Shown: piece by piece, positions 1 through 28,761 of the stretch
How positions within the stretch are numbered: position 1 is the stretch's first letter
How the letters are laid out: the number at the start of each line of letters is the position of its first letter
Assembly (NCBI GenBank): GCA_944350365.1
Contig: CALVOU010000007.1
Span: forward strand, 1-40,739
DNA from: an uncultured Bacilli bacterium
GTDB taxonomy: Bacteria > Bacillota_I > Bacilli_A > RF39 > UBA660
Direction of reading: 5' to 3'
DNA: 40,739 bases
Made by a program: the position numbers and the translations under genes
The notes under the pieces: generated by a model
The model's database searches: none
What the model was told of the DNA's origin: nothing
Seen by the model: the letters and a program-made list of their open reading frames with translations, nothing else

Positions 1-76
1 GGTAACTTTATCGATGAAGCAGAAAACCCAGGAGGCAACGACTGGGACATGAAAAATTTATTTTTCATTTTGTTCT
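1..76 (+). mobile_element. Right end of an IS200/IS605-type tnpB element with omega-RNA scaffold
   Basis: These 76 bases align with the right end of the complete tnpB element at 28531-28604. They differ by a few substitutions and two extra bases in the last hairpin. Both copies share the hairpin CCCAG...CTGGG (29-48 here), the intervening GAGGCAACGA, then GACATGAAA, and end in TTTTGTTCT. The terminal hairpin is ATGAAAAAT/ATTTTTCAT here and ATGAAAAT/ATTTTCAT in the other copy, so pairing is kept although the sequence changed. The rest of this element, including any tnpB gene, would lie upstream of the window. In TnpB systems this stretch is the 3' part of the guide RNA scaffold, and the bases after it act as the guide. 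Confidence 0.75.
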
Positions 77-85
77 TCGTTTTAA

Positions 86-115
86 TTGACAAACTAGCTT
101 TGTTTTGACTATAAT
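86..115 (+). promoter_or_regulatory. Near-perfect sigma-A promoter
   Basis: TTGACA at 86-91 and TATAAT at 110-115 are separated by 18 bases. The promoter lies directly after the tnpB-element right end and drives the small membrane-protein gene at 146. The -35 box lies inside the stretch that would serve as the guide of the upstream omega-RNA. Confidence 0.8.
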
Positions 116-26461: not shown

Positions 26462-26958
26462 ATGAATAGAAAAGAAAGAAAAAATTTAAAGAAAAATAAG
26501 GATTTAGTAAAAGAATTATATTCTATTATTAATAAATATCTTCCTAAACTATTAGATATGTTTGATAATTTAACTGATACTGGAAATCAATGTTATGTTA
26601 CTTATAAAATGAAAACTATTTGTGTGACTAGAGTATTTGGTTTACTTTGCGGTTTAACCACTATGACTGATATTTCTTCTGATGACTTAATTCTGATAGT
26701 TGTATTAAAAACCTATCTAAAATATGTAATCAAGAGTTAGAAGAACTTCCCTATCGGGAAACTATCCAAGATGTTTTTATAACTATTAAAATTATTCAAA
26801 AATACATTGTAAAAGCTTTAATCCGTTCTAAATTGTTCGATAGATATAGATTAGATGGGTGTTTTCAATTGATATTTGATGGTGCTGGTTTATCTAGTCA
26901 TAATTATATAACCTTATTAAATATAAGAGTATCATATTATCTACTTGTAAATATATAG
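26462..26958 (+). pseudogene. N-terminal part of a decayed DDE transposase
   Basis: ATG 26462 follows AAGGTGGT. The first frame gives 92 residues (NQCYVTYKMKTICVTRVFGL, then LCGLTTMTDISSDD). Shifting by one base at about 26688, where one T is missing from a TTT codon, continues as NSDSCIKNLSKICNQELEEL and later FDRYRLDGCFQLIFDG-GLSS up to TAG at 26958. This is the N-terminal region of a DDE transposase family common in clostridia and related Bacilli, judged from recall of family motifs (xxxVTYxMKTIxxTRLxxLLCG). The middle of the gene, including the catalytic core, is deleted. Confidence 0.7.
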
Positions 26959-26971
26959 AAACAAAAAAATA

Positions 26972-27162
26972 AAAAACTACTATTTTTAGATATATTAGTG
27001 ATTAGATATCAAAGATTCTAATATTAAGGAGATTATTTTTATGGGAAGAAAAAGATGGAAAACAGAAAATGAAAGTTTCTACACTCAAAAACATAGAACT
27101 TTCAATATATCTCATTTAAACAGTAGAAATGATACTACTATGAAGAATCATTATTTTTTTAT
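26972..27162 (+). pseudogene. C-terminal part of the same transposase, left of the tnpB insertion
   Basis: With two single-base frameshifts (in the TTTTT run near 26982-26987 and at GATTAG near 27004) the stretch reads KNYYF-YISD-DIKDSNIKEI, then IFMGRKRWKTENESF and YTQKHRTFNISHLNSRND, ending MKNHYFFI at 27163. The order GRxRWKxENE-F-xQK ... MKNHY is the typical C-terminal part of the transposase whose N-terminus lies at 26462. The reading continues at 28606 after the tnpB element. Confidence 0.7.
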
Positions 27163-27249
27163 ATACTAGGAATTTGCTTTGTAAAAGGTTAAAACATATA
27201 AGTGTGGAAAGGTATAAAAAAAGAAAAACAAGAAAATTTTGTAATTCAC

Positions 27250-27278
27250 TTGACTAGCATACATTTGTTTGTTATAGT
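27250..27278 (+). promoter_or_regulatory. tnpB promoter
   Basis: TTGACT (27250-27255), 17-base spacer, TATAGT (27273-27278): near consensus. AAGGGGG then precedes the tnpB ATG. Confidence 0.75.
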
Positions 27279-27314
27279 CTTGTTAACTATTAACACCAAA
27301 GGGGGAATGACATC

Positions 27315-28451
27315 ATGAATATGTATAAAAGTTATCAGTTTCGACTTTATCCAAACAACCAACAAATTATTCAAATTCAAAAAACATTTGGTTGTACAAG
27401 ACTAGTTTATAACCATTATCTTGAAAAAAGAAAAAAAGACAATTTGACTTGTTTTGAGATGATCAGAGTTTTGCCTAATTTATATTCAGAATATCCATTC
27501 TTAAAGGAAGTGAATTCATGTAGTTTGAGATGTAGTTTATTTGATTTAGATGTTGCCTTTAAACGTTATTTTAAACATCAAAACAATTATCCTAAGTTTA
27601 AAGGAAAGTATAGTTCAAAAAGAAGTTATCGGACGAATTATATTACTAGTACTTATAAAGAAAAAAAGTATGAAAATATTAGAGTAGATTTAAAAAGAGA
27701 AGTGATTATTCTTCCTAAATTAAAAGAAGTAAAAATTAGAGGATATAGAAATTTAGAATCTTTACCTGGAAGAATAATCAATGCGACAATCAGTGAATGT
27801 TCAAGTGGTAAATATTATGTTAGTGTATTAGTAGAGGTTAGTCATATTGTTCCAAAAATTATTCCAAAAAGAATAGTAGGAATTGATTTAGGAATAAAAG
27901 ATGTGTTAATTACAAGTGATGAAGAAAAAATAAAGAACGAAAGAATAATCGAAAAATATGAGAAAAGGATTAAAAGAAAACAACGAGAATTAGCTAGACG
28001 AGAAAAAGGAAGTAGTAATTACTATAAAACGAAGAAAAAGTTAGCCATTCTATTTCGGAAGTTAAAGAATGCCAGAAAATATTTTATTCATCAAATAACG
28101 AAAAAACTAGTATTAGAAAATGATATCATTGTAAGTGAAACATTAAAGGTAAAAGAGATGCTTGAAGAAAAGAAGGTATCCAAATTTCTAAGTGATGTTA
28201 GTTTATCCAAGATATGTAGTATACTGAAACAAAAAGCTAGCTACTATGGAAAAAGATATATCCAGATAGATAGTTATTATCCAAGTAGTCAAAAATGTAG
28301 TAAATGTGGATATAAAAATGAAAAGGTAAAAGATTTATCAATTAGAAATTGGATATGCCCAGAATGTGGAAGTTACCATGATAGAGATATCAATGCTAGC
28401 ACTAACATATTATTTGAAGGAATAAAGAAATATATGAAAGAATTAATTTAG
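27315..28451 (+). CDS. tnpB: TnpB RNA-guided endonuclease (IS605 OrfB family)
   Basis: A 378-residue protein. The N-terminal KSYQFRLYPNNQQ and TRLVYNHYL form the helix-turn-helix/wedge part typical of OrfB_IS605. RuvC-I has D191 in VGIDLGIKD, RuvC-II has E275 in IVSETLKV, and a four-Cys zinc ribbon has C328, C331, C348 and C351. RuvC-III follows in YHDRDINAST (D356/D358). All catalytic and zinc residues are intact and no frame is broken, so it is likely an active, omega-RNA-guided nuclease. It is of normal length for compact TnpB proteins. Own near-consensus promoter. In the family, the guide RNA comes from the tnpB 3' end and the element right end. Confidence 0.93.
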   Translation: MNMYKSYQFRLYPNNQQIIQIQKTFGCTRLVYNHYLEKRKKDNLTCFEMIRVLPNLYSEYPFLKEVNSCSLRCSLFDLDVAFKRYFKHQNNYPKFKGKYSSKRSYRTNYITSTYKEKKYENIRVDLKREVIILPKLKEVKIRGYRNLESLPGRIINATISECSSGKYYVSVLVEVSHIVPKIIPKRIVGIDLGIKDVLITSDEEKIKNERIIEKYEKRIKRKQRELARREKGSSNYYKTKKKLAILFRKLKNARKYFIHQITKKLVLENDIIVSETLKVKEMLEEKKVSKFLSDVSLSKICSILKQKASYYGKRYIQIDSYYPSSQKCSKCGYKNEKVKDLSIRNWICPECGSYHDRDINASTNILFEGIKKYMKELI

Positions 28452-28604
28452 TATAGAAAAAACAAGCATAAAAAAGGAAAAACAAAGTCTACGGCAGCGA
28501 CTGTCGAATGTTAAGTCTGTGGAGAATAGAGGTTACTCTATCGATGAAGCAGAAAGCCCAGGAGGCAACGACTGGGACATGAAAATTCATTTTCATTTTG
28601 TTCT
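28450..28604 (+). ncRNA. Omega-RNA (TnpB guide RNA) scaffold region
   Basis: The 3' part of the element after the tnpB stop. It contains the stem ATAGAG-GTTA-CTCTAT (28526-28541), the stem CCCAG...CTGGG (28557-28576) and the terminal hairpin ATGAAAAT/ATTTTCAT (28579-28596), ending TTTTGTTCT. The same scaffold occurs at 1-76. In TnpB systems the scaffold begins near or inside the tnpB 3' end, and the roughly 16-20 bases beyond the element end form the guide, here starting ACAATTTACAC. The 5' boundary is approximate. Confidence 0.7.
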
Positions 28605-28761
28605 ACAATTTACACATGCAATAAGACAGTTATTAGAACATGGTAATCTTTAACAAAATCATTAAAACTAAAAAATAAAGAAGTTTCTAAAAGCTCTTAC
28701 TTCTAACACCTCAGATTTTAACAATTTAGAAACTAACTTTCAGTTAAGATTTGATGGTTAA
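28605..28761 (+). pseudogene. C-terminal part of the decayed transposase, right of the tnpB insertion
   Basis: It continues the reading interrupted at 27162: QFTHAIRQLLEHGNL, frameshift (one T lost), TKSLKLKNKEVSK, frameshift, ALTSNTSDFNNLETNFQLRF-DG and TAA at 28759-28761. AMKNHYxxxQ...LxEHG and the terminal LRF are typical of this transposase's C-terminus. Several independent frameshifts show it is long inactive. Confidence 0.68.

Follow-up and report, generated by a model that had tools for sequence, protein, structure and literature searches.

What kind of locus is the right end at the very start of the window (the whole stretch of DNA analysed here, 40,739 nt), and what does the difference between its terminal hairpin and that of a second right end in the same window mean? 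The window is the entire contig C7 of a genome of 1.47 Mb in 80 contigs. An earlier sequence-only reading had seen in both right ends the 3' part of a TnpB omegaRNA with compensatory changes in the last hairpin. We considered two alternatives for the former: it could be an ordinary end of a tnpB element, or it could belong to a guide locus devoid of tnpB. We hold with high confidence that window 1-75 is the right end of a multi-copy, tnpB-only IS200/IS605 element, comprising the 3' half of its omegaRNA (P4, P5 and the TTTGTTC tail) and directly followed by a presumed guide from the host; the assignment to a TnpB element right end encoding the 3' part of an omegaRNA is thus supported.

One family of IS200/IS605-type tnpB-only elements has right ends at window positions 1-75 (copy A) and 28485-28603 (copy B), both, like the other features of the two copies, on the forward strand. 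Copy A (1..75), cut on its 5' side by the contig edge and 88% identical to 28531-28603, comprises the P4 stem-loop CCCAG/CTGGG (27..46; arms 27-31 and 42-46), the terminal hairpin P5 ATGAAAAATTTATTTTTCAT (49..68) and the conserved tail TTTGTTC (69-75). The scaffold of copy B (28485..28603), supported by the right-end alignment and by covariation, contains P1 (28492-28506), P2 (28516-28519 with 28550-28553), P4 (28557-28576; arms 28557-28561 and 28572-28576) and P5 ATGAAAATTCATTTTCAT (28579-28596), the element ending at 28603. As had been claimed, the two copies do not differ in the CCCAG/CTGGG stem or in its loop of 10 nt, and both terminal hairpins pair with no mismatch. The segments that follow, 76..95 and 28604..28623, are the presumed guides; the former is the place where the empty orthologous sites begin, its role being suggested by analogy with ISDra2 (PMC8612924), and that of the latter is presumed from its position.

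Copy B terminates a full element of about 1.44 kb (27161..28603, with ends taken from the left-end and right-end alignments), and a T-tract (27154..27160), presumably the target or TAM side, lies immediately to the left. The tnpB gene (27315..28451) encodes a protein of 378 aa with matches to Pfam PF12323, PF01385 and PF07282. Its RuvC residues are intact (D in GIDLG from 189, E in SETL from 274, D in DRDINAS from 356), as is the zinc ribbon CxxC...CxxC with its two CxxC pairs; the HTH, the OrfB/RuvC core, the zinc ribbon and the D-E-D triad of an IS1341-like tnpB-only element are all present. The closest natural solved structures are those of the ISDra2 TnpB, 8H1J and 8BF8 (phmmer, E=3.7e-64 for 8BF8). 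There is no adjacent Y1 tnpA, hence the element is not of the IS605 type, with tnpA and tnpB together. The sole Y1 TnpA found in the genome belongs to a tnpA-only IS200-type element on contig C18 and is not adjacent to tnpB; in a tblastn search of this protein against the window and a part of the sampled loci only its own locus matched. Just upstream of the full element, at window 26462-26740, there is a 92-aa ORF with no Pfam match.

The ends of the family are well defined, with subterminal hairpins (the one at the left end was judged by eye) and no target duplication. For the copy on C25, uninterrupted sites are seen in the genomes G012 and G016, where the left T-tract is directly joined to the right flank. 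Insertion occurs 3' of a short conserved sequence: almost every one of the 49 left ends has a T-tract on its left.

A search with the copy B right end yielded 15 related places in the genome, of which 13 are intact and two, on C68 and C77, are relics. The sequence-only reading had counted at least two guide loci, which is true but understated: there are about 14 right ends, and the copy at window 1 is not special among them. Its hairpin (A5/T5) is found in 11 of the 13 intact right ends, and the A4/T4 form in two (C7:28531 and C25). The latter is also present in the sister genome G016 and hence marks a subfamily; the two subfamilies are fixed for P5 variants of 8 bp and 7 bp, respectively. Being one event between subfamilies, the difference within the genome is by itself no covariation test, and the claim of a compensatory hairpin holds for the double changes across relatives that keep the pairing, rather than for the pair of copies from which it was drawn. 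Copies with an unpaired hairpin had been named as evidence that would count against this claim. One exists, on C68, where the outer part of P5 is lost; as the adjoining tnpB is itself truncated, reduced to the last 163 codons, we read this as decay. The C77 relic (L015 1153-1503) is a 350-bp decayed tnpB-less derivative with both ends kept; P4 is gone and there are in-frame stops, while P5 is still an 11-bp hairpin.

From 80 tnpB relatives on genome contigs, and from sister genomes, we read 75 distinct right ends, which share the order P1 - P2 - P4 - P5 - TGTTC. As in an omegaRNA/reRNA, a conserved structured scaffold reaches the element end and borders on the guide. Of 68 P5 hairpins, 52 pair perfectly and 57 carry no more than one mismatch; the spacing of P5 to the element end is nearly constant, mostly 6-8 nt. 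The check proposed earlier, aligning right ends and looking for covariation, was carried out across relatives on 17 distinct hairpins: pairing was observed in 94.1% of cells compared to 64.8% after shuffling, the number of double-changed cells was 39 compared to 11.0, and the covariation score was 0.80 compared to 0.19 (in each case 0/500 shuffles). When the partner was slid by 1-3 columns, pairing fell to 41-59%. For P1, P2 and P4 in 16 full-length ends, 98.8% of cells were paired and 57 were double-changed, compared to 17.7 in shuffles; here again the shuffle count was 0/500, and, since the alignments contain related sequences that inflate the counts, such shuffle counts are strong support and not probabilities. 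In P4 of the relatives both sides change in 5/5 pairs, with 96% paired. P5 was counted on its own alignment, as the full-length one put distant rows out of register; in alignment A1, one tail base outside the helix was trimmed from the last four rows. Folding of single sequences did not differ significantly from shuffles (z -1.95 and -1.33), thus the structural evidence is comparative, and an Rfam search at both the gathering threshold and a permissive E-value matched no RNA family. Taken together, sequence comparison establishes the repeat family and its boundaries, shows that the sister copy encodes an intact TnpB, and reveals four helices conserved through compensatory change. Judged from sequence, the right end in the window is ordinary and its element belongs to a known kind, the omegaRNA/reRNA architecture lying beside a catalytically intact TnpB.

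Three other explanations of the right end need to be weighed. The difference between the two hairpins might be due to selection-free homopolymer slippage, as the A5/T5 and A4/T4 forms are distinguished by a single A and a single T within A/T runs and by changes in the loop; we regard this as very improbable, because both arms changed symmetrically, and relatives swap G-C, A-U and C-G stem pairs on both sides. It is also rather unlikely, if less far-fetched, that P5 is kept solely as a right-end DNA hairpin for TnpA with no working part in the RNA. TnpA proteins of the IS200/IS605 family are known to recognise hairpins located subterminally at the left and right ends (PMC6006769), P5 lies at a nearly fixed distance from the element end, and C77 lost P4 yet retained P5. 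However, the same transcript also shows covariation in P1, P2 and P4, hence the region is under RNA selection, and pairing in many relatives is kept via G-U/T states, which fits RNA, although DNA is somewhat tolerant of G-T. We consider that P5 probably has a double role, being both a part of the RNA and a right-end single-strand DNA hairpin for a Y1 TnpA acting in trans; of the two, at least the DNA role is favoured by the C77 relic, which has lost P4 but kept P5.

The remaining explanation concerns position 1. If the window-1 right end were a MITE- or PATE-like guide locus without tnpB, it would borrow the TnpB made at 27315; indeed, no tnpB is visible to its left, and C77 demonstrates that a short derivative with both ends exists. 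But C77 is decayed, and the contig simply stops at this place: the first 77 bases are exactly common to C7 and the reverse complement of C53, after which the sequences diverge. Judging from the number, this overlap is the mark of a de Bruijn assembler with k=77 at a repeat junction. Thus, window position 1 is an assembly break, and that copy A lacks its left part does not argue for an element without tnpB. Moreover, at least seven contig ends (C28, C62, C10, C18, C25, C58 and C66) have a left end and the beginning of tnpB but no right end, as expected of broken full copies. The tnpB-less element that had been suggested here is therefore unsupported, and we give it little credence.

The right boundary of copy A is confirmed by the host DNA to its right, which is found without the element in G012, G006 and G016, with homology starting from window 73-78; upstream of the junction, the DNA has diverged in all three relatives. 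An 18-nt stretch of the presumed guide of copy A has no second match with fewer than two mismatches in the genome. The presumed guide (76-95, the first 20 nt of host flank) overlaps the -35 box of a sigma-70-like promoter, TTGACA-18-TATAAT (TTGACA at 86-91, TATAAT at 110-115), which belongs to the downstream gene at 146-493 and starts 10 bp beyond the end of copy A.

In ISDra2, TnpB is guided by an RNA made from the right end plus about 16 nt of flank, and the donor is cut beside the left-flank motif (PMC8612924). By analogy, the TnpB described here would bind a processed right-end RNA of this kind, and would cut the donor site next to the left-flank motif. The Y1 TnpA would be supplied in trans, the single gene found, on C18, being the candidate; against this partnership counts the fact that the end hairpins of the IS200 tnpA element differ from those of the tnpB element. 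One TnpB may possibly be shared among guides.

The left ends, [T]ATATACTAGGAATTTG, lie directly 3' of T-tracts in this genome and its relatives, and these T-tracts tend to be parts of terminators. Scoring a single hairpin that ends at a T-tract (at least 5 T, threshold -6 kcal/mol), we observed a hairpin at 31 of 44 left ends, compared to 84 of 452 intergenic T-tracts of the own genome (70% vs 19%; odds ratio 10.4, p=2.6e-12) and 88 of 1969 coding T-tracts of the same genome. With at least 6 T the same tendency is seen (26/36 vs 53/220, p=3.7e-8), also for the own genome alone (9/14 left ends vs 53/220, p=0.0025), whereas at -8 kcal/mol and at least 7 T the difference is not significant (6/23 vs 17/97, p=0.38). 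On the left of the full copy in the window there is but a weak hairpin (-2.5), and copy A has its left flank beyond the contig edge, hence the terminator pattern rests on copies outside the window; examples of left ends behind terminator hairpins are L079, L080, L191 and L004 (G000 and relatives). In G012, G001, G015 and G008 the C1 site has the terminator but no element, and thus the terminator is older than the insertion. A 3.3-kb segment at this site in G012 and G016 was considered as another insertion and rejected, as it is a host protease-like gene. In G012 (C35:3242-6547; L281 343-3648) this is a 1101-aa subtilase-like protease gene lying where C1 of G000 has the element, and it is absent there in G000.

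A similar pattern is observed for IS200. We read the left flanks of eight IS200 tnpA elements from the same bacterial family: seven follow a hairpin of at least -8 kcal/mol in strength and the remaining one a hairpin of -5.2, with L220 having a less certain boundary; the tnpA-only element G000:C18:6433-6897 (L048/L211) follows a tRNA gene and its terminator. For IS200C/IS200F of E. coli and Salmonella, all 14 distinct sampled sites (loci L294 and L297-L313, from different strains, taken in the order of the search listing), scanned over the final 16 nt of the left flank, show a hairpin at least as strong as -10 kcal/mol at 0-8 nt from the boundary, compared to 17 of 96 random flank positions, a control unmatched for T-tracts or intergenic position (p=1.4e-9). 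Most of these hairpins are textbook Rho-independent terminators, several of them behind yfeX, glyS, potE, tkt, ugd, carB and plaP, while the L307 site has a strong hairpin with almost no T-run.

We tentatively propose, giving it a little less than an even chance, that IS200/IS605-type elements, from the tnpB-only ones of gut Bacilli to classical IS200, pick their targets by the single-strand DNA structure of an intrinsic terminator, and hence land behind genes. The target, a hairpin with a T-tail, would have the layout of the element's own right end (P5 and TTTGTTC), and insertion behind genes would do little harm and leave the upstream terminator intact. Alternatively, no hairpin is read, and terminator adjacency results from a T-tract target and survivorship, other insertions having been purged; this is a serious possibility, albeit one we would not bet on. 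Intergenic T-tracts are indeed already enriched in terminators (19% at 5 T or more, 31% at 7 T or more), and at the strictest setting the difference is not significant. On the other hand, the left ends exceed this intergenic background at -6 kcal/mol by far (p=3e-12), and every sampled E. coli and Salmonella site has a strong hairpin, including the nearly T-run-free L307. The over-representation of IS200 between converging gene ends in a large survey (PMC9208149) agrees with the terminator association. We found no report of terminator-directed IS200/IS605 insertion in the open-access literature, to which the search was confined, and novelty is therefore uncertain. It is this link to terminators that deserves further attention: if Y1 elements do read the structure of terminators, this would explain both the persistence of IS200 with little harm and the fact that many TnpB guides here start just behind terminators, and would provide a simple rule for the prediction of insertion sites. 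Independently of this, the well-supported covarying omegaRNA scaffold from uncultured gut Bacilli is useful for TnpB mining.

Among known systems, the closest is ISDra2 with its TnpB and reRNA/omegaRNA (PMC8612924; 8BF8, 8EXA, 8H1J): the TnpB proteins are alike over nearly the full length, the right-end scaffold overlaps the 3' end of the element, the guide comes from the right flank, and the left flank has a T-rich motif, although it is a T-tract here and TTGAT in ISDra2. Unlike ISDra2, the present element is tnpB-only, with no adjacent tnpA, and is known from its sequence. With the tnpA-only IS200C/IS200F of E. coli and Salmonella the family shares the insertion next to terminators, and the Y1 TnpA of the same genome is 58% identical to the IS200F TnpA; however, IS200 has neither tnpB nor omegaRNA, and its end hairpins differ. 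Finally, the established precedent for landing behind terminator stem-loops is that of group IIC introns, which insert 3' of a terminator or another stem-loop, recognising the hairpin and a short sequence (PMC10190682, PMC7923331), but these are retroelement ribozymes with unrelated machinery.
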